DNA of 64,000 bases from an uncultured Erysipelotrichaceae bacterium. Lineage in GTDB: Bacteria > Bacillota_I > Bacilli_A > Erysipelotrichales > Erysipelotrichaceae. The stretch covers positions 1 through 64,000 of the forward strand of contig CANOSP010000007.1 of NCBI GenBank assembly GCA_947569705.1, given 5' to 3'. The notes below the pieces were generated by a model, which did no database searches, was not told the DNA's origin, and saw only the letters and a program-made list of their open reading frames with translations. Positions 13,421-48,756 of the stretch are shown one piece after another; the stretch's first letter is position 1, and each line of letters opens with the position of its first letter. The translations under genes and the position numbers were made by a program.

Positions 13421-14273
13421 GAGCTTTCACCTCGTCGGCAATCGCCTTTGCCAATGTATCCATATCGATTAAATCACAAGGAAGCGAAAAGCCGCGCTGA
13501 TTCAGCTCATCACGCAGACGAATCACAGCCGGGGGATTAATTCGCAGCTTTCGCAACAATGTACTGTCCTTGAAAAACTGCTGCTTATCACATGTTTGTG
13601 CAATATGACCGTTGTCTACTACGACGACATGATCACAATAAGTCAAAACATGTTCCATATCATGAGTGACCAATAAGATCGTTTTATTATACTCCTTATT
13701 TAAGCGAACAAATAATTCCATCATATCCTTAGCACCCTGCGGATCTAAGCCCGCCGCCGGTTCATCCAATACAAGAACATCGGGATCCATTGCCAAGATG
13801 CCTGCAATCGCCACTCTGCGCTTTTGTCCACCCGACAACTCAAACGGACTGCGCTCTGCATATTCCTCGCTTAAGCCTACTACTTGAAGCATTTTCTGCG
13901 CCTGCTTCAGCGCTGCTTCTTCACTCATTCCGAAATTCTTGGGGCCGAAGGCAATATCTTGCGCAATCGTTTCCTCAAATAATTGATATTCGGGAAACTG
14001 AAATACAAGTCCGACACGTTTCCGCAATTCTTTTAATTGTTTCGGCTTTTCAACCGCAGTAATCGTCCGATCCAAGACCGTAAGTGATCCCTTTGTCGGC
14101 AATAACAATGCATTCAAATGCTGAACCAAGGTTGATTTACCGCTCCCTGTTTCACCGATAATCGCAGTGATCTTTCCTTCTTCAATCGATAAATCGATCG
14201 CATCCAAAGCCAAATACGCAAACGGTGTGTCCGCATTATACTCATGAGTTAATTTTTCAAATGTAATCGGCAT
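13413..14273 (-). CDS. ecfA2: ECF transporter ATPase EcfA2
   Basis: 286 residues. Walker A GETGSGKST, Q-loop QFPEYQLFE, signature LSGGQKRRVAI and Walker B VLVLDEPAAGLDP are all intact. Second ATPase of the group II ECF energy-coupling module. It overlaps ecfA1 by 25 bases, so translation is coupled. Confidence 0.95.
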   Translation of the reverse strand: MPITFEKLTHEYNADTPFAYLALDAIDLSIEEGKITAIIGETGSGKSTLVQHLNALLLPTKGSLTVLDRTITAVEKPKQLKELRKRVGLVFQFPEYQLFEETIAQDIAFGPKNFGMSEEAALKQAQKMLQVVGLSEEYAERSPFELSGGQKRRVAIAGILAMDPDVLVLDEPAAGLDPQGAKDMMELFVRLNKEYNKTILLVTHDMEHVLTYCDHVVVVDNGHIAQTCDKQQFFKDSTLLRKLRINPPAVIRLRDELNQRGFSLPCDLIDMDTLAKAIADEVKAHE

Positions 14274-34285: not shown

Positions 34286-37200
34286 TCAAATTGATTCATC
34301 TTCCAGCACCTTTTCCATTTTCTTGGTTACGAAGATCAATACTGCTCCAAGTAAGATGAATGCTGGAATACTGCTCGCTGTTACCGGCTGTGTTGCCGTG
34401 TCAACGATCGGAGAATCACTGGATACAATTGCATAATATGAATTATGGTTTGTTGTAAATGTGATATATCCGTCCACTACTTTAGATGGTATTGTTGTTG
34501 CTTTTCCGTCATCAGAAATATATACAATACCCAGATAGCGTTTTGCTTTCAACTCGTCATCTAATTTAATCTTAACCGTAATGTTTCCTTCCGGTGTATA
34601 TGTTACACCATTGCGCAGCATATAAATGTTGAAGATTTTTTCAAATTTATACTTCGCAACTGCATCTTTGTTTGTGATTTTCGCAATGATGTTTGCTTTT
34701 ACATCAGCTACTAAATCCTCAACAATCAACACAACATCAGATGGGAACTTACCAATAACACTTACATTGTTTTTGTTGTTATCAATTTGAGTTACATTAC
34801 CCGGTTTAATTGGCTTATTCGGTTCAACCGGATTTGGGATAACCGGTTTGCCTGGTTTATTCGGTTGATCAGGTTTACCTGGATTATCCGGTGTACCCGG
34901 CTTGTTTGGCTGATCAGGATTGTCAGGTGTATCAGGAGTATCCGGTGTGTCTGGGTTTGACGGATCATTTGATTTGAGTTTCAAACCTTCGATTGCTTCC
35001 TCAATATCAATAATACATTCGTTTACCTCGCTCAAAGATACAACATCTTTCTTAGCTACTGCCTCCGCACGTTCGATGACCGCTGTCAACACTTCCCATG
35101 TAGAAGGTACGTAATCCTCCTCCTTCAATGCCTTTGCTTTTGCGATTGCTTCCTGTAACGCTGCCAAATCAGAAGGCTGTGCTTTTTTCTGAAGCTTCGC
35201 AATTGCATTTTCGATCGCCTTTGCCATAGCGTCTACAACATCCTGCTCATTGATTTTCTTATCACGTATTACAGCATCAATCGCTTCCTCTACCGCACTG
35301 AAATCCATATAATCATTCGGATTTAAAATCTCGGCCTTACGAATTGCTTCATCTACCTTTGTATAATCGGCATCCTTATAGATAAGCTTTGCCATCACTT
35401 CACGAAGTGTAGCACATGCGGTATCCACTTCATTCTGCGTTGCCCCTTCTGCTTGCTCGACCTGTAATGCGTTTTCCAAGGCCTGTTCAAGCAGCGTCCA
35501 GCTGTCAGCCGTATAAAGTGCTTCAGATAAATCTTTCGCCTCTGCGATCGCAGCACTCAAATCGGATGTATTCGCCTTGAATTTTATTCCTTTGACAATC
35601 AGCTCCTGAACGGATACGGAATTCCGCTTACCGCCGGATTCTAATTGTACATCAGTTAAATACAGCTTTACATAGCGTGCCAAGACATGATCGAGTTCAT
35701 ACACATCCTCATCACCCGGCAATGCATTCGTTTTCTTTTCTCCGACCTTTGTCCATGTTACATTATCCTCGCTGATATAAACCTCATAGTGATGCCAAAT
35801 ATTACCACCGAAAACCACTTGAATCTGTGAAACCTCATACAGCTTTTCTAAATCAACCACTGCCCAACCCGGAGTGATCGTTTCCTCATACGGTTTTCCG
35901 GTTGCGCTTAAGCGACCTGCATTCCAATGGGTATCCAAGCTGCCGTCTGTTAAGCGCTCGCTGTTGCCTGAGGGATCATTGTGAGCCGTTACCGTTTTAT
36001 GCAGGGCAACATTAGGAGTTGTTTTTAAATCCAACGCGACAAGCGCATCATATAGTGCCCAATAAACGGTTCCTGCCTCATCCGGATTCGCACCGTTTTC
36101 ATAAGAGGTTGTCGCATCGCTCAGCGCTGTCTCAAACGGCTTTATTGCCTCTTGAGCCGCATTATCAATATTCAATGTCGCCGCAAAATCAAGCAATGTT
36201 TTGAGCTGTACCAAATCAGGAAGAATACGCTCACCGTATGCACGCACCTCACCGAGCTGTAACGCCTTCGTATCATCAGCTGCCACTACCTTGATATAGC
36301 GTGCAATCGCTGCCTCTAACGGATAATTAATCCCTGCTTCATCCTCGTTTCCAGCTTTCTTTTCACCGACCTTCACCCATGTATTTTTATCATTGCTGAT
36401 ATAAACACTGTAGCCGCAGCTCTGAGCATTCGATACGATATTGAGCTTAGATAATTGGAATTCACCGATCAAATCGATCATCACCTCAGCATCTGCTCCC
36501 GCAAGCTCTAAAATAGTATCCTTATCACCGTCATTTACCGTATTGACATTCTCATTGGCAGGCGATGCCTCACCAAAGCCCGGCAAAGCGACATTTCCGA
36601 TATTCGGATCAAGTTCTCCGCTGATTGCGCATTCATCTAATACACGCTGTGCAATCATCTGAATTTCTGCCGCCGAATCCTTCGCGGTTCTTGTATAATT
36701 CTGCTTCGATAAATTCCATTTCCAATAGACATCAAAGTAATCACTCTTTGATAAATTACCGTTGCTCACTGAAGCGTTGTTTTCTAAATTATCGGCTACA
36801 CGATTCAAATATTCACTCCAAATAGCGGTATTCAAATCCTTAAAAATACCTTCATAATTGCGCCAGCCGTAATCCTTTAAGCCACCGTGTGAATTTCGTG
36901 AGCCCCAAGAGGTAATCAGCGCCTTAGCGCCCATTTCAAAAGAATCCACCGCAAAATCATCATATGCGCTTCCTCGGTCCGTTGCCTTGCCGATCCATTC
37001 ACCGCCGAGCTGCTCCTGTTGCGTCGACGCTACCTCATTCAATACATCAAAGGCATTCAGGAATTCATCCTTTAATGTCTTAAACTCTGCCACAGTATCT
37101 GTCGATCGTGCGTCTAGGACCTCATTGTATTTCAATACTGCATAATTGCTTACTTGTTGACGCATGATTTCTGTAATATCATATAAATAGCATTCACTGT

Positions 37201-40200
37201 CTTTAAATTTATCAAAATCCTCTAATAATAAGCGCAGTGCACTTTCCAGATTTTCCGCACCATACGGAATTGTTTGCTTTCCGTAATCCTGCGGTGCTTT
37301 AGACTTCATACCAAACAGCTCATTCGTATAGCGAACACCGTGATTATAATTGGCATTTTTCATGATATTCCATGCCGTTCGCGCATTTTCCGAGGTTCCG
37401 CCGTAGCGGCGATTAATATAGCCCTGAATCCAAGTATCCAAATTGAAGCTCTCATCAGCCCATGCCAAATCAAAGATTAAATCGTACATGATCGGATTAT
37501 CGTATTGTGCTTCGGAAATGATACCGAGTCCGACCATATGCTGAGAGGTCTTTCGTGCATTTTGAATATCGTTTACCATGACCTCCATCTGTCCATGCAT
37601 CGACGGATTGCCGCCGAAATTTGCCAATAAGCCCCATGCCCAGCTTGTTCCGTTAAATTCCTTCGCGTCCAATTTGGTACTGCCATAGCTTGTTTTATTG
37701 TATTTCGTCCAGGAAGCGATCGGATATTTAATCAAATCGACCACAAGGACATGATCCTCACGACGATCACCCATTCCCTTTAACAGGTCATTGGTCGGAT
37801 TGCTTTGCCAGCCTTGTACGACCCAAACGGCATCCTTGTCATATTCCAGCATTGAATTCAATACTTCGTCCGCAATTGTGGAATCACTTAAGCCTGCCGG
37901 ACGTTTCCCGCCTTCATGGAACGGGTCTACCGCATAGTAGTCTGAGGTTGCACCGTATACAAACTCCTGTGCCTCATAGAACAAACGTGCATATTCATCA
38001 TAGGTTGCCGTATCTGTCGCAATCATACTCGGACGAGTAAAGCCGCCCCAGCCGCCCTGCGCCAACAGCTGTACATCCTTTTGATATTCGTTAAAGTTAG
38101 TCGGAACCATACCGGCATAGCCCTGTAAAATTGTCTGCATCCCCAAAGAACGCTTCCAGCGCTGTGAGGATCTTGCCATCTCCAGACGATCTTTCACATA
38201 GCCGTCAGGTACCGGACCGCCGAATACTTCCATATTATCCATAAACTGCCAAGCATAGTAAGCCGGACCGCTTAACCAATCCTTAGCGTCATCAAAGCTG
38301 TATCCGAAATTCATTAAGAATTTGATCCATGTTGCTTCCTGTCCTGCCAGATCAAGCACGACATTCACACCGTTTAATGCCAGCCAATCGTTTTCTCTTT
38401 GCCATTCGTCCTGTCCGAAGAACGCAAATGTATAACTCAAAGTACAGTAATTAAACGCATAACGCACCTGATACGGTGTTTCCTTTCTGATTGTCTTATT
38501 TACCTTAACGATTGCATCAGGCATTGATACTTGTTTCGTCTGTTCGGAAATATGAACATTCAGATAGTTTTTATAGTAATAGTTTAAGCCGGTGGTAAGT
38601 GACAGGCCTTCATTACCTTTAATATGAATTTTTCCGTTCTTATCACTGATTTCATACCAATCATTACCGCTTCCGTCTTTCACGATTTCAAAGCTGAACC
38701 AACTTCTGTACTGAGCACCGATCGTGCGATCGATGATGCCGTATACATTATCAATGGTTTCCTGATCGGCAATCACTCCGGCATACTGACTGTCGTCAAA
38801 AGAGGTAACCCCTAAAATTTCCTCAAGTGTTCCCTGCTTTAGGGCATCGGTATTTTTTCCTGCCGCAGTCCCGTATACTCTGACCTCAGATAAGAATGCA
38901 TTGTTTTCACCTTGCGTATATTCCATATAAATACGCACGATACGATATTGTTCTCTCTTCGCAAAGGTAATCGTATCACCGTCTTTATTCATCGGTGTTA
39001 AATCGCGTTTTTGATAAAGTCGTGTATAGTTAGTACCATCATTACTGCCGTAGATTGTATAGTTTACTTTTTTGCCGACCGGTGTAAACAGCTTCATGCC
39101 GGTAATATCATAAGCTTCCATTAAATCAATATCGACATAAGAAGGATAAAACTCTGCCTGCCAGAACGTATCTAAATTGCCGTCGGTAACACGTGCACTC
39201 TGTGTTTTAGATAAATTGGTGCGCGTCGGCTTTTGATAAGCAATATTTGCACTGTCACTCGGATCAGCCAAGGAAACAAGTGCTTCCTTTGCTGCCGCAA
39301 GCTTTTCATACATAATATGGATATCCAATCCGCTCGCGGTATCGCCTAAGCCCTCCGCCTGTGCTAATACAGCTTTTAACTCGTCCATACCTGTCTGTTC
39401 ATACAGTGCTTCATCTAAGCTTTGGCATTCCTTGATCAGGTTTTCCAAACGCATTGAGTAGTCTTGATAGATACCGGTGATTTTAGCACCCTTTGTGCCG
39501 TCGGCACTTTCCTTTGTATGAACCATCAACGAAGTTTCCATGCCTTTATCAGCTACCATAAACACAGTAATTCCGCTGTATCCCGCATCCGCAATTTCTT
39601 TGATTTTTCCACTGATATCTATTTTGATATGCTTTTGTGCATCAGTTTTATTTTCGTATTCTGTTCCTTGTTTAATCACAAAATCACATAAGAGCTTATC
39701 ACCGTCATGCTTGATATCGGCATGCTTGCTATTCCAAGTAACCGTTGTTTCACTCCAGCTTGTATCGGCGGTGTAATAAAAGTGAAATGTTTGATCGCCG
39801 TTATTAAAGCCCGGATTTTTAAAAATATCAAATTCAAGGAAATAAGTGTCCAATTCATGTTGATTCAGCCATTCACTGCTCGGTACATCAAACTTCATCA
39901 TACCGATGATTTCATTATTATTCACATAGCGCTTCGCATTGATTACCTTATAGTTTTTACCGACATATTGTGCACCGTGATCCTTTGTGATATTTTCGAA
40001 ATTATAGTTTGTCGTTCCTCTGTCACTTCTCACAAAAGCATCCTCAAGCACTGAAAATTCTGCGGTTAAGCTTGTTTTCGCAATCATCAGATTGTTATAT
40101 GCCTGCGAAATTTGATTCGCATCTCCTGTAGACAAAGCGGTTTGTGCTGCTGTCAGCTGATTTTGCAGTTCCTGATAGCTTGCTGCTGTATAGCCGTCAG

Positions 40201-40954
40201 CGCTTATCTTTTCACACGCTGTTATTAATTCCTGTAAGCGCAGACTGTTTTCATCATTATTAGATGCGATCAGCTTTGCCGTATAGGAGCCGTCACCGCT
40301 TTCCTTACTGTGAAGCATTAAGGAAGTATCTTTTTTATCATTCGCAGCTGTAAAAACGGTAATTTCGCTCACCCCGTTTTGAACGAGTGCTTTTATCTTA
40401 TCACTTACATCAACGCGAATTGTTTTTTCCGCATCGCTTAAATGCTCATATTCCTTGTCTGCCGCAATCGTAAAATCAAAAAACAAATCAGTTCCGGCAT
40501 GAGTAATCGCTGCGGGCTTATTGTTCCATGTGATTGAGGACTCACTCCAACTGACATCATTTGTATAATAGAAATGATACGTCTGCGGTCCCCTATTGAA
40601 ATCCGCATTTTTAAATATATGGAATTCAAATTCAAAAGTATCATAATGATTTGCCGCAATTTCCTCCGCTGTGGGAAGCTTCAGCTTCATAACACTCATG
40701 AGTTCTCGACCATCGGGATAATATTTTGTATTTAATACCTTATATCCCTTTCCTTCATATTGTGCACCGTGTGCCGCTGTAATGGATTCATTATTATAAA
40801 CAGTTGTACCTCTGTCGCTGCGTACAAATGCATCCTCACTGATCGGATATTCACCAGCAGGAGCTGCGGCAAATACCGGCTCAATGTGAATCCCGCTGAA
40901 TAACGTCGTCAGCGTTATCATGAGCGCCAATATTCCTTTCCCTATTCTTTTCAT
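34286..40954 (-). CDS. Secreted GH89 alpha-N-acetylglucosaminidase, multi-domain
   Basis: 2,222 residues. The ATG at 40954 follows AGGAGG by 6 bases and starts a signal peptide (MKRIGKGILALMITLTTLFS, cut near FAAAP). In order: two DNRLRE-like beta domains, each beginning EDAFVRSDRGTT (about 40-250 and 300-510) and each followed by a helical FIVAR-like piece; an F5/8C (CBM32-like) domain about 590-700; the GH89 N-domain, barrel and helical domain about 745-1470; two more F5/8C domains about 1480-1600 and 1690-1830; three FIVAR modules to about 2040; a Pro/Asp/Asn linker; a beta domain; a final membrane helix. Likely catalytic acids are Glu1014 (DPFHEGG) and Glu1148 (ISEAQYDNP). GH89 enzymes remove terminal alpha-GlcNAc, as on gastric-type mucin. 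No LPXTG is present. A perfect 12-base inverted repeat covers the stop codon (34274-34302). Confidence 0.9.
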   Translation of the reverse strand: MKRIGKGILALMITLTTLFSGIHIEPVFAAAPAGEYPISEDAFVRSDRGTTVYNNESITAAHGAQYEGKGYKVLNTKYYPDGRELMSVMKLKLPTAEEIAANHYDTFEFEFHIFKNADFNRGPQTYHFYYTNDVSWSESSITWNNKPAAITHAGTDLFFDFTIAADKEYEHLSDAEKTIRVDVSDKIKALVQNGVSEITVFTAANDKKDTSLMLHSKESGDGSYTAKLIASNNDENSLRLQELITACEKISADGYTAASYQELQNQLTAAQTALSTGDANQISQAYNNLMIAKTSLTAEFSVLEDAFVRSDRGTTNYNFENITKDHGAQYVGKNYKVINAKRYVNNNEIIGMMKFDVPSSEWLNQHELDTYFLEFDIFKNPGFNNGDQTFHFYYTADTSWSETTVTWNSKHADIKHDGDKLLCDFVIKQGTEYENKTDAQKHIKIDISGKIKEIADAGYSGITVFMVADKGMETSLMVHTKESADGTKGAKITGIYQDYSMRLENLIKECQSLDEALYEQTGMDELKAVLAQAEGLGDTASGLDIHIMYEKLAAAKEALVSLADPSDSANIAYQKPTRTNLSKTQSARVTDGNLDTFWQAEFYPSYVDIDLMEAYDITGMKLFTPVGKKVNYTIYGSNDGTNYTRLYQKRDLTPMNKDGDTITFAKREQYRIVRIYMEYTQGENNAFLSEVRVYGTAAGKNTDALKQGTLEEILGVTSFDDSQYAGVIADQETIDNVYGIIDRTIGAQYRSWFSFEIVKDGSGNDWYEISDKNGKIHIKGNEGLSLTTGLNYYYKNYLNVHISEQTKQVSMPDAIVKVNKTIRKETPYQVRYAFNYCTLSYTFAFFGQDEWQRENDWLALNGVNVVLDLAGQEATWIKFLMNFGYSFDDAKDWLSGPAYYAWQFMDNMEVFGGPVPDGYVKDRLEMARSSQRWKRSLGMQTILQGYAGMVPTNFNEYQKDVQLLAQGGWGGFTRPSMIATDTATYDEYARLFYEAQEFVYGATSDYYAVDPFHEGGKRPAGLSDSTIADEVLNSMLEYDKDAVWVVQGWQSNPTNDLLKGMGDRREDHVLVVDLIKYPIASWTKYNKTSYGSTKLDAKEFNGTSWAWGLLANFGGNPSMHGQMEVMVNDIQNARKTSQHMVGLGIISEAQYDNPIMYDLIFDLAWADESFNLDTWIQGYINRRYGGTSENARTAWNIMKNANYNHGVRYTNELFGMKSKAPQDYGKQTIPYGAENLESALRLLLEDFDKFKDSECYLYDITEIMRQQVSNYAVLKYNEVLDARSTDTVAEFKTLKDEFLNAFDVLNEVASTQQEQLGGEWIGKATDRGSAYDDFAVDSFEMGAKALITSWGSRNSHGGLKDYGWRNYEGIFKDLNTAIWSEYLNRVADNLENNASVSNGNLSKSDYFDVYWKWNLSKQNYTRTAKDSAAEIQMIAQRVLDECAISGELDPNIGNVALPGFGEASPANENVNTVNDGDKDTILELAGADAEVMIDLIGEFQLSKLNIVSNAQSCGYSVYISNDKNTWVKVGEKKAGNEDEAGINYPLEAAIARYIKVVAADDTKALQLGEVRAYGERILPDLVQLKTLLDFAATLNIDNAAQEAIKPFETALSDATTSYENGANPDEAGTVYWALYDALVALDLKTTPNVALHKTVTAHNDPSGNSERLTDGSLDTHWNAGRLSATGKPYEETITPGWAVVDLEKLYEVSQIQVVFGGNIWHHYEVYISEDNVTWTKVGEKKTNALPGDEDVYELDHVLARYVKLYLTDVQLESGGKRNSVSVQELIVKGIKFKANTSDLSAAIAEAKDLSEALYTADSWTLLEQALENALQVEQAEGATQNEVDTACATLREVMAKLIYKDADYTKVDEAIRKAEILNPNDYMDFSAVEEAIDAVIRDKKINEQDVVDAMAKAIENAIAKLQKKAQPSDLAALQEAIAKAKALKEEDYVPSTWEVLTAVIERAEAVAKKDVVSLSEVNECIIDIEEAIEGLKLKSNDPSNPDTPDTPDTPDNPDQPNKPGTPDNPGKPDQPNKPGKPVIPNPVEPNKPIKPGNVTQIDNNKNNVSVIGKFPSDVVLIVEDLVADVKANIIAKITNKDAVAKYKFEKIFNIYMLRNGVTYTPEGNITVKIKLDDELKAKRYLGIVYISDDGKATTIPSKVVDGYITFTTNHNSYYAIVSSDSPIVDTATQPVTASSIPAFILLGAVLIFVTKKMEKVLEDESI

Positions 40955-41030
40955 AATATTCCTCCTCTCTTGCTTCATAGAAGCGAAACGCTGCCCCGCC
41001 TCTTGAAACCTCTTACTTTTATGCATTATC

Positions 41031-41039
41031 ATTATATCA
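41031..41039 (-). promoter_or_regulatory. Extended -10 promoter of the GH89 gene
   Basis: Minus strand TGATATAAT, about 75 bases before the start codon. No good -35, which fits dependence on an activator such as the AraC-type regulator encoded next door. Confidence 0.5.
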
Positions 41040-41162
41040 GACATCTTTTTATAAAATATTAGCTTTTCTTGTAAAGAATTGACTTGCGTTTTTATCTCAG
41101 ATTCAAGCACATCGCATCGCTTTCAGGCACGCCGAAAGACTCAACTTTCCTTGCTGAAAAGC

Positions 41163-41215: not shown

Positions 41216-42670
41216 TTAAAACAGGTTCTTATATTCGCTTGGTGCCATACCAACGATTTTTCGAAATATCTTAGTAAAATAGCTCTGTGAAGCAAATCCG
41301 ACATTATGCGCTACCTCTTTAAATGCAATCCCCTGTTTGATCTGTTTTTTCGCTTCCTTAATTCTTAACGCATTCACCATATCGGTAAAGCTGTCATTGC
41401 CGTTTTTACTGATTAAACGACTTAAGTAAGAAGGGGAAATATGCAGTGCCTCCGCTACCGTAAGTAATGTGATCGGCTTTAAATAATTCGCTTCAATAAA
41501 TGAACACGCTTTTTTATAATTATATTGGTTCCTTGTATACTGTACATTCTTTAAAATCTTTTGAATCATTACAAAAAATTCCATCAGTACCATTTCCAAC
41601 TGTTTCGCATCATGTATTTCGCACTGCTTAAAAAAATCATGATCCGTTTCTACATCATAGCGTTTTTTTACTTCCTGAAGCGTATTTTCAAACAAAAAAT
41701 GTAGCTGTGAACGAAGACTAGGCTGATCAATTTGGCGCAAAAACGGATATAAAACAGCTTCAATTCCCTTCTTATCATCTATTTCAAGCATATCAAGAAA
41801 ATGAATCGCTAAACGCTTTAAATCATCATCACTCATGATGTTCTGTTCCTTAATTGCTTCACTTTGTGTCTGTTGACGCGCATCTTCATAGGAGTGTATT
41901 AAATCATACAATTCATCGACGCACTTACCGACACTGCATTCACAGCTCACCAATGCTTCCTCTATGACCCCCTGTAGCTTTTTAATCTCCGGTTTATCCA
42001 TCGTATGATTGGACAGCACAAATAAAACAATGCTTTGATCCAGCATATGATAAATCGGATCATAACCGCAATCAGTTATCATATGGGCAATCTGATTCAT
42101 CTGTGTGGTATCACATCCGGTTATATAAAAACAAACTCCGCTCAATGCCTTGATTCCCAATAAATTCAAATTTTCCTGTATTTGCAGCTCATCCTTATAG
42201 GTCATGATGGAATAGAAGCAATTCTTAATGATTTCCTCATTTAAATCATTCATTTTAGCCATGAGCTTCTTTTCCTGTTCCTTTTGATTTTCTCTTAATT
42301 TCAGCTGTTCTAATGCCTTAATCAAGCAATCGCTGATTGCTTTTCGATCGCTAGGTTTCAATATAAAATCAATTACACCTAAACGTAATGCTTTTTGTGC
42401 ATAAGTAAAATAATTATAAGAACTGAGGATAAAGCAGACTGTATCGGGACTTCGTTGTTTTACAAGTTCAATCATTGCCAATCCATCCATGATAGGCATA
42501 TTGATGTCTGCAATGATAATATTAGGATGATACTTATCGAATATCGCTATGCCCTCTTCACCGTTCGTCGCAGTCAATACTGCTTGAAACGGAAGCTTTA
42601 ATGATTCTATTACTCTCACAAGATGATCGCGTTCAATTTTCTCATCCTCGACTATCATTATTTTATACAT
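41216..42670 (-). CDS. YesN-type response regulator with AraC DNA-binding domain
   Basis: 484 residues from the ATG at 42670 (AGGAGGTG four bases upstream). Receiver domain 1-120 with phosphorylation site Asp55 (ADINMPIMDG). A middle helical region follows. The C-terminal AraC/XylS domain holds two helix-turn-helix units (LLTVAEALHISPSYLSRL and FKEVAHNVGFASQSYFTKIF). Paired with the upstream YesM-type kinase. It likely activates the neighbouring GH89 gene and perhaps distant sugar uptake genes. Confidence 0.93.
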   Translation of the reverse strand: MYKIMIVEDEKIERDHLVRVIESLKLPFQAVLTATNGEEGIAIFDKYHPNIIIADINMPIMDGLAMIELVKQRSPDTVCFILSSYNYFTYAQKALRLGVIDFILKPSDRKAISDCLIKALEQLKLRENQKEQEKKLMAKMNDLNEEIIKNCFYSIMTYKDELQIQENLNLLGIKALSGVCFYITGCDTTQMNQIAHMITDCGYDPIYHMLDQSIVLFVLSNHTMDKPEIKKLQGVIEEALVSCECSVGKCVDELYDLIHSYEDARQQTQSEAIKEQNIMSDDDLKRLAIHFLDMLEIDDKKGIEAVLYPFLRQIDQPSLRSQLHFLFENTLQEVKKRYDVETDHDFFKQCEIHDAKQLEMVLMEFFVMIQKILKNVQYTRNQYNYKKACSFIEANYLKPITLLTVAEALHISPSYLSRLISKNGNDSFTDMVNALRIKEAKKQIKQGIAFKEVAHNVGFASQSYFTKIFRKIVGMAPSEYKNLF

Positions 42671-42680
42671 ATGACACCTC

Positions 42681-44096
42681 CTATGCACTCACCGTTAATG
42701 AAATTTCAAACCCCTCCCCGACATCACTTTTAATTGCAACATCAAAATCTTGATAATACATTTGCAGGCGATGTACGACATTGTATAACCCAAGTCCTTC
42801 CCCATCTTTTTTATGGTAGTCGTTTTCGATCAGCTGCTTCAGCTCAGCTTGACTCATGCCTTGTCCGTTATCAATCACTCGTATCATCAGATGATGTCCT
42901 TGTTTTTCAATCTGAATCGTTACTGCACCGTCTTTTACACAATCCTTCAATCCATGCTGAATCGCATTTTCTACTAACGGCTGTAAAATCATTGCGGGAA
43001 TCGACGTTTTCTTTATTTCATTATCTTTATCAAAATCAATTTGAAAGGTTATTTTATCCTCAAAGCGTTTTTTCTGTATATCGATATAATATTCCAATGC
43101 ATTTAACTCTCGTTCAAGATCACTTAAACGATTCTGCATTTCTAAGCTGTAGCGCAGCAGATGACTTGTTTTGAGCAGCATATCTGAGGCATCAAAAGCA
43201 CCCTCTTGTTCCGCCATACAATAAATTGTATTCAAGGTATTAAAGAGAAAATGAGGATTGATTTGGTTCTGAAGCATTTTTAATTCACTTTTCGCAAGTT
43301 TTTTTTCAAGTTCTGCCTTTTCTTTTTGTGTCGCCATATTCAAGGCGATCTTACCTGCCATCTCCTCCAGTGCAACACAGATTTCTTCCATTTCTAAGCT
43401 GCTTTGCGGTTCCATTTCAAGATTATATTCTCCCTGTTTGATCAAAGCTATACTCTCCAATACTTTTTGCAGCGGTTTAGAAATTGTATGATAAAGCAGC
43501 TTAGAGAAATATCGAGTCCAGAAAAGAATTGTCAATGAAGCTATTATAATCATCAAATAAGTCAATGCCTGTGCAACTGAAAGCTTTGACTTTTGTTTAT
43601 TCATTGTTTCAGTTACGATATGATAATAATTGGTGGCAGTTTCCTGAATCAGTCGCTCATTTTTCAAAAAGTGTTCATAGTAGCTGCGATAACTTGCGGC
43701 ATTTTCGTTTTTCATATACTGCTCCATCAGCTCCTGTGCCGATTCCTCATATTCAATTAACATATTTTTTAACAGCTGAAAACGCCATTTATCATTCATG
43801 ATCGGATTTTCCAATAAATCCTGTATCCCTGTTTTAGCATGAATCATACTTAACTCATATTCGCTTAAGTATTCCTCCTCACCGACAGTTAAGTATTTTT
43901 TCATATCATCACTGCTGTGTTTTACAGACTCATAATACTGCTGCAGATCACTGTAGCCTTCAAAGATGCGATTATAACAGGAGGAATTCCAATAGGCCGC
44001 AATACAGAACAGCACTACGACGATTGACACAAAAGTACCAAGCCAATGATTTGTACTTTCTACTCTTTCTTTAAAGCTTCTCTTATTTTCCATCAT
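42681..44096 (-). CDS. YesM/LytS-type sensor histidine kinase
   Basis: 471 residues. Two membrane helices (about 18-38 and 180-200) flank an extracellular helical sensor. HAMP-like linker next, then the His_kinase domain with NQINPHFLFNTLNT (the phospho-acceptor His precedes FLFN), then an HATPase with VENAIQHGL and GEGLGLYNV. Its start overlaps the upstream lipoprotein gene by 14 bases. Partner of the YesN-type regulator. The separate binding protein suggests ligand sensing through that lipoprotein. Confidence 0.93.
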   Translation of the reverse strand: MMENKRSFKERVESTNHWLGTFVSIVVVLFCIAAYWNSSCYNRIFEGYSDLQQYYESVKHSSDDMKKYLTVGEEEYLSEYELSMIHAKTGIQDLLENPIMNDKWRFQLLKNMLIEYEESAQELMEQYMKNENAASYRSYYEHFLKNERLIQETATNYYHIVTETMNKQKSKLSVAQALTYLMIIIASLTILFWTRYFSKLLYHTISKPLQKVLESIALIKQGEYNLEMEPQSSLEMEEICVALEEMAGKIALNMATQKEKAELEKKLAKSELKMLQNQINPHFLFNTLNTIYCMAEQEGAFDASDMLLKTSHLLRYSLEMQNRLSDLERELNALEYYIDIQKKRFEDKITFQIDFDKDNEIKKTSIPAMILQPLVENAIQHGLKDCVKDGAVTIQIEKQGHHLMIRVIDNGQGMSQAELKQLIENDYHKKDGEGLGLYNVVHRLQMYYQDFDVAIKSDVGEGFEISLTVSA

Positions 44097-45021
44097 TCAG
44101 CTCCCGATAATGATTAATATTGCTTTTATCAACAATAATTAAATTTGTATCAATATTCTGCGGTCTTTTTCCTTCGTGGACATACTGATAAAGCATTTTG
44201 ACTCCCTGGTAACCGTATTGATAAAATGAGGTAACGACGCTGCCGTCGATTTTTCCGTCACGAATCAGCTGTAAAGTCACGGGCATATCATCAACTCCGT
44301 AAATCAACATATTTTCTCTAAGTTTTTGCGCATTAGCTGCTTCCCAACAAAACTCAGCCGATTCTGCCGCAAAGTTAATTGCTACATTTACATCGCTGTG
44401 CTCCCTAAGAACAAGCTCCCATTCCTTTTTGGCTCTAATTTCTTCGGATTGTGATTCACTGATACTGACAATTTCATAGCCGCCCGGATGCTTTGCAAAC
44501 ACCGCTTCGATTTCCTTTATCTGATCCTGTGCAATTTTAAAATCAAGATTAGCGACCTGTATCGCTGTTTTTAATTTCTCCTTTTTTCCGAGCTTTGCTT
44601 CTATATCCTGTAATAACAGCTCAGCCTGTTTATGAAAATCCTTACCCATATAATATAAGTGTGCGGCCTCTTCCATATTGCTGTCGACAAAAACAATCGG
44701 AATATTTTTCTGTTCAGCAAAATCAATTATTTCTCGAGAAATAACTCCTTGAGTAATAATTCCGTCTGCCTGCTGCAGAATCCCAGTATAAACCACGTCC
44801 TCCATTTCAGCTGTGTCAATTATTGTCGGCCCAAGCCAATCACCGTTTACCTGATAATCCTTGCAGGCGCTGTCAAAGCCTTCCTTTGCCTGAAGCCAAA
44901 TATCATGTTCAGCTAACGGAGTCGCAAACAAAAAGTAGTATTCATAAGCATTTGAATTATTTGACGCGCTGCAGCTACATAGAATTAACAGAAATACACA
45001 AAGAATACATACTCTTTTCAT
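44083..45021 (-). CDS. Sugar-binding-like lipoprotein of a three-component sensor
   Basis: 312 residues from the ATG at 45021, chosen because it opens a lipoprotein signal (MKRVCILCVFLLILCSC, Cys at the lipobox end). The rest has the type I periplasmic-binding-protein layout of RbsB/LacI-like proteins (YYFLFATPLAEHDIWLQAKEGF, ADGIITQG, IPIVFVDS, YGVDDMPVTLQLI, GYQGVKML). No permease or ATPase is adjacent; instead a kinase and regulator follow, overlapping. Family knowledge: XylFII-LytS-YesN systems work this way. The ligand is probably a sugar, perhaps a product of the GH89 enzyme. Confidence 0.82.
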   Translation of the reverse strand: MKRVCILCVFLLILCSCSASNNSNAYEYYFLFATPLAEHDIWLQAKEGFDSACKDYQVNGDWLGPTIIDTAEMEDVVYTGILQQADGIITQGVISREIIDFAEQKNIPIVFVDSNMEEAAHLYYMGKDFHKQAELLLQDIEAKLGKKEKLKTAIQVANLDFKIAQDQIKEIEAVFAKHPGGYEIVSISESQSEEIRAKKEWELVLREHSDVNVAINFAAESAEFCWEAANAQKLRENMLIYGVDDMPVTLQLIRDGKIDGSVVTSFYQYGYQGVKMLYQYVHEGKRPQNIDTNLIIVDKSNINHYRELNDGK

Positions 45022-45227
45022 AACGGACTCACTCTTTCGCGTTTTGTAAAACATTCTTTTTTACTATATTTTTCTAAGAATATTATAATACAGATACATT
45101 TGTAAAATAGTTACATATTTTGTAATAAATTTCACATGAATAAGCATATGAAAAAAATCGGATAAACCTAAACAAATAATATCCGCAAACATTTAATGAA
45201 GAAATAATAAACAGAGAATAACAACCA

Positions 45228-45268
45228 AATGAAAAGGATTGACTCCTGTTCAATTCAGAAACCAATCC
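45228..45268 (-). terminator. Likely terminator of the thiamine transporter operon
   Basis: Minus strand GGATTG ... CAATCC hairpin with inner TCTG / CAGG pairs, followed by TTTTCATTT, about 75 bases after the TatD-like gene. Confidence 0.5.
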
Positions 45269-45344
45269 TCAGTAACTGTTTAATTAAAGTTTTAACGATT
45301 ATCAAAAAATTGGGCTCACTTCATGATATTACAAGATTTACGCT

Positions 45345-46067
45345 TTAATTATTTTTAGTGTAATTAATGAAGTTCATTAGATTTTGATTTAAATGTGCTT
45401 CCATGTTCCTATGTCCTTTAAGTGCTTCAATGTAAGCAACACTGCGCTTCATAAGAGCAAGATACTCTGACGTCTGAACTTGTCGATTTTCACACCATGA
45501 CAATGCAGAGATACCGTCACTTTCCAATAACAGTCGATTTAGCGGAACGCTTTTTGCCACTTGCTGTACCGCACGATCCTTATAAATCGAAGGACCGACT
45601 GAGAAGTAACAATCCAATGCGATATATTCATCAAGATAAGCATCACAGGAATACCAATGGATGAAATATTGATTCTGATATTTACGCACCGACGGCAAAG
45701 CTTCTTTTTCCATACCCTTTAAATGCAAGATAACCGGCTTATGATGTTTTGAAGCATATGCAAGTTGACGTTCAAATATTTCAAATTGCTTCAAGACATC
45801 GACATCACACCAAACATTATCTAATCCGATTTCACCGATAATCGCTGCTTGTTCCAGTATCGGTCGCATTTCTTCCCATGAAATTCGATCACTGTTCCAC
45901 GGATGAATACCGGCACTGATTTGAATGCCTTCAAGCTGCTTCTGCCATGCGCTTAAGCGTAAATATTCCTGAGAAGAAGACGCATTCACGATGCCTTGTA
46001 TTTGATGCTGTGCCAAAAAAGCCAAGAAGGCATATTCATCCGTGTGGAAATGTGCATCATGCACCAT
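45345..46067 (-). CDS. TatD-family metal-dependent hydrolase in a thiamine operon
   Basis: 240 residues. HxH metal site near the start (HDAHFHTDE), GEIGLDNVW, VILHLKG, FIHWYS and LLLESDG mark the TatD fold. TatD proteins are usually DNA or small-molecule hydrolases. Here the start overlaps the ATPase gene by 11 bases in an operon led by a TPP riboswitch, so a role in salvaging thiamine or its pyrimidine is plausible. That is inference from context; a housekeeping nuclease is the alternative. Confidence 0.8.
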   Translation of the reverse strand: MVHDAHFHTDEYAFLAFLAQHQIQGIVNASSSQEYLRLSAWQKQLEGIQISAGIHPWNSDRISWEEMRPILEQAAIIGEIGLDNVWCDVDVLKQFEIFERQLAYASKHHKPVILHLKGMEKEALPSVRKYQNQYFIHWYSCDAYLDEYIALDCYFSVGPSIYKDRAVQQVAKSVPLNRLLLESDGISALSWCENRQVQTSEYLALMKRSVAYIEALKGHRNMEAHLNQNLMNFINYTKNN

Positions 46068-46797
46068 TGTGCGTTTCCTGCAACTGCCGATGAATATCTC
46101 GTTTTAATTCCGCTTGTTCAAACAGCCAGTCACGTGATTTTGTCACTTCCCTTAAATCGATTTGGCGAATGATGCTTGCGGGACGATTTCCCAAGATTAA
46201 AATACGATCGGCCAAATATAAAGCTTCTTCAATATCATGCGTTACCAATAAAATCGTTTTATGTAGATCATTTCGCAGCTGTAACAGCCAATCCTGCATC
46301 TCATTTCGCGTTATCACATCTAATGCACCGAACGGTTCATCTAACAACAGAATATCTGCATCACATAACGCAGTGCGTAAAAATGCTGCCCGCTGTCTCA
46401 TTCCTCCCGATAATTCATGAGGATATGCCCTCTCATAGCCGTCCAAGCCAAACCGCTTCCATGCTTTGAGCGCTTGTTCCTTGGCGGCTTTTTTTTGATG
46501 TTTCAGTGTACCGCACAGACAAACATTGTCTAAGATTGTTGCCCAAGGCAACAGTAAATCATTCTGCGGCATATAGGCAAAGTGTATAGATACCCCGTTG
46601 ATTTCCTGTTCATCGACGCGGATGCTTCCCGATTGTGCTCTCAGCGTTCCTGCCAATACATTTAATAAAGTAGACTTTCCGCAGCCGCTTGTTCCGATGA
46701 TTGCGACGAATTCCCCCTCATCTATCGACATGCTGAAATCCTTTAACACCTGCTGATCTGAAAATGCGACCGATAATTGTTCAATTTGCAGTTTCAT
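46057..46797 (-). CDS. thiZ: ABC transporter ATPase, ThiZ-like
   Basis: 246 residues from the ATG at 46797, which follows a GAGG site overlapping the upstream stop. Walker A GTSGCGKST, signature LSGGMRQRAAF, Walker B ILLLDEPFGALD. It energises uptake through the membrane subunit encoded two genes upstream. Belongs to the nitrate/taurine/HMP group of ABC ATPases; the riboswitch points to the thiamine precursor. Confidence 0.85.
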   Translation of the reverse strand: MKLQIEQLSVAFSDQQVLKDFSMSIDEGEFVAIIGTSGCGKSTLLNVLAGTLRAQSGSIRVDEQEINGVSIHFAYMPQNDLLLPWATILDNVCLCGTLKHQKKAAKEQALKAWKRFGLDGYERAYPHELSGGMRQRAAFLRTALCDADILLLDEPFGALDVITRNEMQDWLLQLRNDLHKTILLVTHDIEEALYLADRILILGNRPASIIRQIDLREVTKSRDWLFEQAELKRDIHRQLQETHNGA

Positions 46798-46807
46798 TCT
46801 CGGTACC

Positions 46808-47806
46808 TCATCGAATGAACTCATTCGTATATTGCCGCTCTGCCGGAAGCATCTGTTCAATCAAACCCGCTTCCTGCATGAATTGTGTATAGCGATCCCA
46901 TACCTCATCCCGCATCACGCCCCATGTATCAGCGTCTGCCTGATATTCACGGCTGACAAACGCTTGGCTTTGTTTCAAAAATTCAAAGTCACTGTCCGGC
47001 AGAACCTCATGAAGGATCTTCGCTGCTTCTTCGGGATTCACAGCCGCATATTCATACCCTTTTTTTACAGCTTGTACAAAAGCTTTTACCGTTTGCGGAT
47101 CGTTCTTGATCATGTTCTCATTTGTGATAAACAACGGCGTGTAATAATCCAGCCGCTCATCCAAATCCTTTAACGGTATATAATTCAAGTTATAACCGTC
47201 AAGTCTGCCCTTTAAAACCGCCCAGCCTTCAAAGTCCCATTGCAGATCTACGCCGTTTCCCAGTGCCGCAAAACCGCTTCCGTCTGCCCCCACCATCGTC
47301 AGCTGACTAAAGTCGGCACCGCCTTTTTTCATAACAGATTGAATTACCGCTTCTTCACTCGGTGCCTGCCATCCGGCATAAACCTTTCCTTCAAAGTCCT
47401 TCACCGTTTGAATATTCGCATGCTTCAAAGACACAAATCCGCTCGTATTATGCTGCATAATTGTCGCAATCGCACGGATCGGAAGCGGCTCCTTTGCACA
47501 GCGGGCATAAGTCACGTCCTCTTGATAGCTGACACCGAATTCGCCTCGATTCACAGCCACCAAAGTCGCACTTGTTTCGTTATCTCCCGGTTCAATGATA
47601 TTCACGCTCAAACCGGCTTCCTCAAAATAGCCGTTTTTTTCCGCAACATAGATTCCCGTATGGTTCGTATTCGGTAAGTAATCCAAAATCAAAGTAACTT
47701 CTTTTAATCCGTTGTCTGTTTCTGCTTGCGGTGAAGCACAGGCGCTTGTTCCCGTCAAAAGTATAATACCTGTCAGCGCCCAAGCGATTTTCAATTTATA
47801 TTTCAT
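46808..47806 (-). CDS. thiY: ABC transporter substrate-binding lipoprotein, ThiY-like
   Basis: 332 residues from the ATG at 47806. Signal peptide with lipobox-like LTGTSAC. NMT1/THI5-like fold: VTLILDYLPNTNHTGIYVAEKNGYF is the classic opening of ThiY proteins, which bind formyl-aminopyrimidine thiamine precursors. It starts one base after the permease stop. Confidence 0.87.
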   Translation of the reverse strand: MKYKLKIAWALTGIILLTGTSACASPQAETDNGLKEVTLILDYLPNTNHTGIYVAEKNGYFEEAGLSVNIIEPGDNETSATLVAVNRGEFGVSYQEDVTYARCAKEPLPIRAIATIMQHNTSGFVSLKHANIQTVKDFEGKVYAGWQAPSEEAVIQSVMKKGGADFSQLTMVGADGSGFAALGNGVDLQWDFEGWAVLKGRLDGYNLNYIPLKDLDERLDYYTPLFITNENMIKNDPQTVKAFVQAVKKGYEYAAVNPEEAAKILHEVLPDSDFEFLKQSQAFVSREYQADADTWGVMRDEVWDRYTQFMQEAGLIEQMLPAERQYTNEFIR

Positions 47807-47807
47807 T

Positions 47808-48620
47808 TTATTTTCCCTTTCTCTGATACGGAAGCACGATTTTTTCAATCCACGCAACACATAGATGTAACAATAAACTCCATATAATAATCACAATGAC
47901 ACAGGCAAATACCTTATCCAACATATAACCGTTTTTCACGCGAATCATAAAATAGCCCAAGCCTGCCGAGGCGCTCAGCCATTCACCGACAATCGCTCCG
48001 CCGATACAATAGGTGGCCGCTACTTTCAGCCCGGAGAAAAACGCATGTGCGGCAGACGGAATCTTTACATAACGGTAAAGCTGCCATCGCGTTGCCCGAA
48101 AGCTTTTTAACAGATTCAGCTGCTGCGGATCTGTTTGCGCCATCGCATCATAAAAGGATATCGCAATTGGAAAAAAGCACATGAAAATCACCATTATAAT
48201 TTTCGGTGTCATCCCAAAGCCGAACCATATCGCAAACAGCGGTCCTAAAATCATCACCGGGACAGTTTGTGTCACAATTAAGTGCGGATACAGACTGCGC
48301 TTACAGATTTTGAACATATCCATCAAAATCGCAATCGCAAATGCCGATATTGCCGCAAGCATTAATCCAATAAGTGCTTCACTTAAAGTTACGACGGAAT
48401 GACTCCACAAAACTTGTGCATTCTCCCTTACAGCGTTCAGGATATCGCTCGGTGCCGGCAGGATATACAGACTGATATCAAATGTGTGAATAACCCATTC
48501 CCATATAAGCAAAACGATCAGAATTGAAATTAACGGATCTGTCACTTCACGCAGTTTGCTTTTTGAAATCGCTTTGTTTGCGGCTGATCGCTTCGCTGAT
48601 TTCGACTGCTTCTTTAACAA
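47808..48620 (-). CDS. thiX: ABC transporter permease, ThiX-like
   Basis: 270 residues. No ATG fits. A GGAGGTG ribosome site is followed after 8 bases by TTG at 48620, giving MLKKQSKSAKRSAANK before the first membrane helix. About six membrane helices, with the EAA-like loop DAMAQTDPQQLNLLKSFRAT for the ATPase. First gene under the TPP riboswitch, whose expression-platform hairpin pairs away this same ribosome site. Confidence 0.85.
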   Translation of the reverse strand: MLKKQSKSAKRSAANKAISKSKLREVTDPLISILIVLLIWEWVIHTFDISLYILPAPSDILNAVRENAQVLWSHSVVTLSEALIGLMLAAISAFAIAILMDMFKICKRSLYPHLIVTQTVPVMILGPLFAIWFGFGMTPKIIMVIFMCFFPIAISFYDAMAQTDPQQLNLLKSFRATRWQLYRYVKIPSAAHAFFSGLKVAATYCIGGAIVGEWLSASAGLGYFMIRVKNGYMLDKVFACVIVIIIWSLLLHLCVAWIEKIVLPYQRKGK

Positions 48621-48627
48621 AATAAAA

Positions 48628-48645
48628 ACACCTCCGATGAGGCGT
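48628..48645 (-). terminator. Riboswitch expression-platform hairpin covering the ribosome site
   Basis: Minus strand ACGCCTC / GAGGTGT, loop ATCG, then TTTTATTTT. The right arm contains most of the thiX ribosome site GGAGGTG, so the hairpin could both terminate transcription and hide the ribosome site. Confidence 0.6.
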
Positions 48646-48678
48646 AAGTGAACCAATCTAAAAAAACAAATAGAATGA

Positions 48679-48745
48679 CTCCCTACGCTAGTATTACCTA
48701 GGTCAGGTCTAAGGGTATTATCTCAGCTTATTCAGCACCCCTGTC
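48679..48745 (-). ncRNA. TPP riboswitch (THI element)
   Basis: Minus strand carries the conserved blocks in order: GGGGTGCT, GCTGAGA, ACCCTTAGACCTGACCTAG, TAATACTAGCGTAGGGA. These are the pyrimidine- and pyrophosphate-sensing parts of the thiamine pyrophosphate aptamer. It lies directly upstream of the thiXYZ-tatD operon and should switch it off when TPP is plentiful. Confidence 0.95.
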
Positions 48746-48756
48746 TTGACTTTTTT

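Follow-up and report, generated by a model that had tools for sequence, protein, structure and literature searches.

The window analysed here, a stretch of 64,000 nucleotides from an uncultured Erysipelotrichaceae bacterium, carries on its minus strand a TPP riboswitch aptamer followed, in this order, by thiX, thiY, thiZ and a tatD-like gene [Table 1]. With a TPP riboswitch before the permease gene, an NMT1/THI5-family binding protein and an ATPase, the first three genes have the composition of a ThiXYZ-type importer. No second TPP aptamer was found in the window's own genome (2,131,591 bases; 2.13 Mb). The hairpin 3′ of the aptamer is probably the expression platform and might act as a terminator, by masking the ribosome site, or both. 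For thiX, an in-frame TTG at 48620, 10 bases past the GGAGG, is a likelier start than position 48656. The earlier note on this DNA had described tatD as overlapping thiZ by 11 bases and as the fourth gene behind the aptamer; the reading-frame coordinates and the aptamer search bear this out, and the order is kept in all ten genomes discussed below. The hairpin downstream of tatD probably marks the end of the thiamine unit; terminator-like sites in total are not above shuffles (3 observed vs 3.6 expected). The overlap, the gene order and this hairpin together suggest that tatD is under the same riboswitch as thiXYZ. Moreover, dN/dS of tatD relative to its nearest orthologue is 0.16 (0.11-0.18 for thiX, thiY and thiZ), which indicates that the gene is maintained by purifying selection.

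Table 1. Coordinates of the thiamine unit, numbered from the first base of the window
Feature	Positions	Strand	Support and remarks
TPP riboswitch aptamer (RF00059)	48663..48752	(-)	70 bits, cut-off 54.3; ahead of thiX
Hairpin and U-run, 3′ of aptamer	48628..48645	(-)	GGAGG within stem; fold z -2.99
thiX, ABC permease	47808..48656	(-)	PF00528
thiY, substrate-binding protein, NMT1/THI5 family	46808..47860	(-)	PF09084
thiZ, ABC ATPase	46057..46860	(-)	PF00005
tatD-like hydrolase, 240 aa, ATG start	45345..46067	(-)	PF01026
thiZ/tatD overlap, 11 bases	46057..46067	(-)	ORF coordinates
Terminator-like hairpin, 15 pairs, downstream of tatD	45234..45270	(-)	fold z -2.15

Among 148 genomes sampled at the level of the order, ten encode a TatD orthologue scoring at least 191 bits, the next-best match reaching 69 bits, and each of these ten also encodes a second, ordinary TatD (42-69 bits). 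In all ten, the window and nine others, thiX, thiY and thiZ lie immediately upstream of tatD in identical order. The TPP aptamer upstream is above the cut-off in eight of them and scores 54.0 and 52.0 bits (cut-off 54.3) in the other two. A search for ThiY in the 148 genomes (E up to 1e-20) matched 19; close ThiYs (at least 435 bits) occur in exactly the ten that carry TatD, and the nine further genomes have a distant ThiY (112-234 bits) without a TatD of this type. The ten genomes belong to six genera and therefore do not represent independent events. Widening the sample to 395 genomes of the class returned five TatDs of at least 373 bits and five ThiYs of at least 659 bits, in the same five genomes, and added no close orthologue to the known ten. 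Two weaker TatD matches from this wider search (108 and 106 bits) lie beside apparent housekeeping genes.

A scan of genome contigs for TatD relatives gave at least 80 loci, and a tree was built of 118 rows, from which L041, L042 and L043 were excluded as the same DNA as G079, G083 and G033. The TatD of the window falls within a clade of 35 rows (clade I; support 100/99), and 31 ordinary TatDs, E. coli TatD among them, lie outside it. Long branches make the placement of some rows unsure, including that of L059 in clade I. A second clade (clade II; 24 rows, support 100/96) includes Clostridium, Peptoniphilus, Kallipyga and Anaerosalibacter. In the flanking DNA covered, ThiY accompanies 24 of the 35 clade-I rows, 10 of the 24 clade-II rows and 0 of the 59 other rows, the last a control that is weaker than it appears because the median DNA covered is about 3.5 kb (30 ordinary TatDs have short loci). 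The tree labels 35 rows as thiXYZ, one more than the 24 plus 10 counted on ThiY; the extra row is L084, where the contig runs out behind thiX.

The linkage in clade I covers, among the matches listed, Erysipelotrichia, Lachnospiraceae, Ruminococcus, Cellulosilyticum, Vagococcus and Enterococcus durans. A TPP aptamer is above the cut-off in 21 of the 24 ThiY-linked rows, just below it in two and not found in one (L066). With longest-ORF starts, thiZ and tatD overlap or lie within 10 bases of each other in 22 of these 24 rows, the exceptions being L061 (78 bases) and L066 (830 bases). Hence, homologues beside ThiXYZ, which had been looked for to follow up the earlier note, were found in order in ten of ten genomes and with most rows of the clade; that note let its proposal depend on a recurrent association with thiamine genes, and the association recurs widely. 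A chance neighbourhood was considered and rejected, given the order kept in the ten genomes, the co-occurrence of ThiY and TatD, and the clade-I count. Counting against the link, ten clade-I rows are without thiXYZ despite upstream DNA being covered; L060, an eleventh such row, is cut off by the end of its contig. These stand-alone rows are from lactobacilli (L044, L045, L049, L052, L063, L064 and L065), Bifidobacterium (L058), Peptostreptococcus (L059) and Lachnospiraceae (L070). In nine of them (all but L070) that were scanned for a TPP aptamer, it was found only in L049.

In clade II, the arrangement is more varied. Counting L084, there are 11 linked rows, 10 of which have a TPP aptamer above the cut-off; none was found in L079. 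The aptamer stands in front of TatD in L075, L077, L081 and L084 and between TatD and thiX in L069, L071, L074, L078 and L080. In L072, TatD is divergent and the aptamer lies on the opposite strand ahead of thiXYZ. A Thiamine_BP (PF01910) gene sits between TatD and thiX in L071 and L081. The L081 contig also carries a second TPP aptamer (13711-13821, minus strand; 58.7 bits) ahead of thiM and thiE, which are paired on the reverse strand some 2 kb past its TPP-TatD-Thiamine_BP-thiXYZ operon. TatD relatives also occur in archaeal records (L087, L082, L085, L112 and L115): that of Sifarchaeum falls in clade II, and those of Heimdallarchaeota, Aenigmatarchaeota and Nanobdella fall outside both clades. 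No ThiY was found near the archaeal relatives in the DNA covered, of which L085 and L087 offer only a short stretch.

The class also holds thiXYZ loci without TatD nearby; the 11 that were read (L176-L186) have ThiYs 33-44% identical to that of the window, and seven have a TPP aptamer above the cut-off. Eight of them (L176, L178 and L181-L186) have a Thiamine_BP (PF01910) gene, and three (L177, L179 and L180) have nothing extra beside thiXYZ; no substitute hydrolase was recognised by eye in the 11 operons. The small Thiamine_BP gene thus partners thiXYZ either in place of TatD or, in L071 and L081, along with it. Since TatD-less thiXYZ operons exist, TatD is an accessory gene that import does not need.

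A comparable arrangement is on record for B. methanolicus MGA3, where RNA-seq work on leaders and operons assigned (TPP)-tauA-BMMGA3_09465-tauC-tauB-tatD to an ABC transporter operon and gave (TPP)-tenA-tauB-tauC as a separate operon [Table 4 of PMC4342826]. The first of these shares the TPP riboswitch, the ABC transporter and the terminal tatD with the unit in the window; it differs in an extra gene and in gene order, and the available portion of that paper gives tatD no role. The comparison is made on the operon listing.

What the importer carries is suggested by ThiY. The closest solved structure to the ThiY model is 4NMY (53% identity, Z 40.0, rmsd 2.3, 297 residues), entitled "Thiamin-bound form of Substrate-binding Protein of ABC Transporter from Clostridium difficile" and also given as the thiamin-bound form in the accessible text of PMC10586155. 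The formylaminopyrimidine-binding 3IX1 is more distant (24% identity, Z 33.5), and by similarity ThiY is of the thiamin-bound type. In a published gut-microbiome table [PMC6593275], ThiXYZ2 appears under B1 transport and ThiXYZ under HMP transport; the locus in the window would correspond to ThiXYZ2. What it has in common with ThiXYZ2 and the C. difficile importer is a TPP riboswitch, a ThiY of the 4NMY type and TPK without ThiD and ThiE; it differs in that a TatD hydrolase is a regular fourth gene here and finds no mention in the sections available of that study.

The pathway genes of the hosts point in the same direction. TPK (thiamine pyrophosphokinase) is encoded in all ten orthologue-bearing genomes, among which ThiE (3/10), ThiD (3/10), TenA (1/10) and ThiT (2/10) are over their cut-offs in few. 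In the window's own genome (98.5% complete), TPK is present and none of ThiE, ThiD, TenA and ThiT reaches its family's cut-off; the match resembling ThiD scores 51.6 bits against a cut-off of 205. TPK acts on unphosphorylated thiamine. With TPK alone of these enzymes, the cell could make no use of an imported pyrimidine, so that the cargo would have to be thiamine or a compound one step from it. ThiL is over the cut-off in none of the 34 TatD-bearing records (33 distinct genomes, L043 being G033), 33 of which have matches below it (up to 122 bits, cut-off 184), and in 9 of 14 control genomes. Absence of ThiL may be the norm in these Firmicutes, and the count, which covers TatD-bearing genomes and not their TatD-less relatives, gives weak support to free thiamine as the required form.

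The TatD-like protein itself is a member of the TatD family (PF01026 TatD_DNase; 107 bits, cut-off 27). Its AlphaFold2 model (pLDDT 96.4; 40 sequences) is matched best by 3gg7, an uncharacterised protein (Z 29.5), and ranks 2-12 are TatD-family structures (Z 28.0-24.4). The residues at the metal-ligand positions (H6, H8, E79, H115, H137 and D184), together with H55, are the same in all 40 sequences of the alignment. In the alignment to E. coli TatD, E79, H115, H137, D184 and H55 fall on E91, H127, H152, D203 and H62, and the HxH pair (H6 and H8) aligns with GxN. In the structure of TATDN1, the metals are held by E112, H149, H174 and D222, and H77 contacts the phosphate; the H77A variant loses AP-endonuclease activity and retains the exonuclease [PMC10085689, in the text available]. 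Hence, the GxHP histidine seems dispensable for some phosphoester reactions. Judging by the GxHP motif, H55 is probably the equivalent of TATDN1 H77.

Set against characterised TatD DNases (E. coli TatD, YcfH and YjjV, S. aureus TatD, and human TATDN1 and TATDN3), the protein has the same fold, metal-ligand positions and GxHP histidine, as well as the HxH motif of group II. It differs in the active-site loops, where K117-G118-x-E120 replaces the Arg-Asp/Glu of ordinary TatDs, W138 replaces Cys and G185 replaces Cys/Ser/Ala, so that the clade reads HWYS for HC(F/Y)SG and E(S/T)DG for ETD(C/S)P. The motifs typical of the subfamily are GIHPW, GEIGLD-x-x-W-C/T, H-x-K-G-x-E, HWYS and E-S/T-D-G.

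Operon anatomy and its recurrence, the thiamin-bound type of ThiY, the TPK-only genome, the intact metal ligands and the altered loops are all read directly from the DNA, and a functional model can be built on them. We consider it likely that the TatD-like gene has a dedicated role in thiamine acquisition; since it is the recurrent fourth partner of a B1 importer, the probable target of its product is a small molecule related to thiamine. That this action is the hydrolysis of a thiamine derivative upstream of TPK appears to us evenly poised. Our tentative model is that the fourth gene of this TPP-controlled import operon encodes a cytosolic hydrolase that frees thiamine from a derivative for use by TPK. 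At low TPP, importer and TatD would be made together. The importer would take up thiamine and/or a thiamine derivative, and TatD in the cytosol would convert the derivative to free thiamine, which TPK would use.

The bond most likely to be cleaved would be a phosphate ester, in thiamine monophosphate (TMP) or in a related thiamine phosphate or conjugate. This bond is favoured since TatDs are metal-dependent phosphoesterases, the metal site and H55 are kept, and TPK wants its thiamine unphosphorylated. Taken by itself, phosphate-ester cleavage is a possibility that we hold to be somewhat doubtful. The presence of K117 in place of the Arg of ordinary TatDs means that a non-phosphate substrate could be conceived, and the ligand of 4NMY is thiamin, which requires no hydrolysis before TPK and so counts against the model. 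Any import of thiamine phosphates through this ThiY is putative.

A broader version would make the distinct TatD subfamily a B1 salvage enzyme of Firmicutes that frees thiamine from its phosphates, which the TPK-only gut bacteria would import and the hosts of a stand-alone gene would make with ThiE. We place this version on the unlikely side. In the genomes of the stand-alone clade-I TatDs, ThiE is over the cut-off in seven of nine (six lactobacilli and one Peptostreptococcus), just under it in Bifidobacterium (134 vs 145 bits) and without a match in Weissella uvarum. If the broader version were true, the subfamily would supply the TMP-to-thiamine step required by bacteria that have TPK and lack ThiL. 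To our knowledge, no dedicated bacterial enzyme is known for this step; the literature on TMP phosphatases is, among the matches listed, mostly plant work.

The main rival to phosphate-ester hydrolysis is a house-cleaning role, in which TatD would destroy a damaged or toxic thiamine analogue, or repair a ring-opened form, brought in by the importer. The accessory status of the gene, its probable co-expression with the importer and its patchy presence are what such a role would lead one to expect. For these hosts such an analogue is hypothetical, and we regard this role as unlikely.

The invariant metal ligands and the TatD-family folds that make up the 12 best structural matches raise a further alternative, that the protein is a DNA or RNA nuclease, ordinary or QatD-like, which only came under TPP control. 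The curated subfamily models argue against this alternative. The window protein scores 91.1 bits with TIGR00010 (TatD DNA exonuclease subfamily; cut-off 206), and five of its relatives likewise fail at 96-145 bits, in contrast to ordinary TatDs taken as a control from its own genome (270 bits) and from four of the nine others, which pass at 267-288 bits. With QatD of the Qat anti-phage system the protein shares the HWYS-like and DG motifs of the QatD-like rows, and the clade-II relative L075 reaches 159 bits with the QatD model NF041926. The window protein itself scores 76.2 bits with that model against a cut-off of 230 and 59.7 bits with the PADLOC QatD model, and its neighbours are thiamine-import genes; a QatD or defence assignment was rejected on these scores, and a phage origin was rejected for want of any PHROGs match. 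Moreover, an ordinary TatD is retained in each of the ten genomes, and the subfamily forms a separate clade with changed active-site loops and a thiamine linkage kept across families. The separate paralogue, the clade and the TIGR00010 control also led us to reject the notion that an ordinary TatD had drifted into the operon. No clade member with a proven DNase record came up, and E. coli TatD, the only solved TatD DNase placed in the tree, is among the ordinary TatDs. Collectively, these data make a nuclease role quite unlikely.

The earlier note suggested deformylation or deamination of an imported thiamine breakdown product, which is read here as the YlmB/TenA step on a pyrimidine fragment that would feed HMP salvage. 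This specific step fares less well, although the TatD-fold metal hydrolase in a TPP-controlled operon described in that note stands. As an amidohydrolase-like metal TIM barrel, the protein has some resemblance to enzymes of this kind: deaminases and phosphotriesterase-like enzymes match the model at Z about 16.7 to 18.5 (cytosine deaminase 18.4), and dihydroorotase is a match at E 3e-4, the resemblance to both named enzymes being distant. Outside the ten, 14 of 23 genomes with TatD have a ThiE over the cut-off, and in Pediococcus stilesii (L049, 4371-8711) the clade-I TatD is divergent from TPP-thiM-thiD-thiE-tenA. A deformylated or deaminated fragment needs ThiD and ThiE (and TenA) for its later steps. 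The window genome and six of the nine comparison genomes have no ThiE or ThiD above cut-off, so HMP would be unusable there, and the ThiD, ThiE and TenA that formylaminopyrimidine or HMP salvage calls for downstream are missing from the window's own genome at these cut-offs. The ThiXYZ-TenA-YlmB salvage system, whose ThiY is 3IX1, has a homologous and often TPP-controlled ABC importer; it differs in a ThiY sharing 24% identity with that of the window and in a TenA, ThiE and ThiD that the window's genome lacks at cut-off. ThiY is instead nearest to the thiamin-bound type. The one operon encountered that joins TenA (PF03070) with ThiXYZ, TenA-thiZ-thiX-thiY-thiX at L187 1933-5999, has no TatD; its ThiY is 28% identical to that of the window, and its leader scores as a Purine riboswitch (52 bits, cut-off 37) and not as a TPP aptamer. 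In B. methanolicus, too, tenA and tatD belong to separate TPP operons in the operon table as available [PMC4342826]. A pyrimidine step is thus very unlikely.

Finally, a non-enzymatic partner on the TatD fold, for example one that chaperones or regulates the ATPase of ThiXYZ, would agree with the tight coupling of tatD to thiZ and is highly improbable given the metal-ligand positions invariant in 40 of 40 sequences and the clade members that exist without thiXYZ.

Within the literature searched, which leaves most subscription journals outside, one publication joining TatD with a TPP riboswitch was found [PMC4342826] and none that treats TatD and ThiXYZ jointly, and no proposal of a role for TatD in a thiamine-import operon was seen. 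Homology would give genes of this subfamily the label TatD DNase. Should the thiamine link hold, the whole clade would be misnamed, and B1-auxotrophic gut bacteria would have an enzyme that has gone unrecognised; the TatD fold would then be used in cofactor salvage and not on nucleic acid. The proposal also bears on how bacteria that lack ThiL and depend on TPK dephosphorylate thiamine phosphates.

Beyond the thiamine unit, the minus strand of the window encodes a 2,274-aa protein (34286-41110) with NAGLU (PF05089, PF12971 and PF12972), F5/8 type C and CBM96 domains, probably a glycan-degrading alpha-N-acetylglucosaminidase. Between this gene and the thiamine unit (41216-45054, minus strand), three genes lie in tandem for a periplasmic sugar-binding-type protein, a histidine kinase and an AraC-type response regulator, a trio that looks like a sugar-sensing system serving the NAGLU gene.
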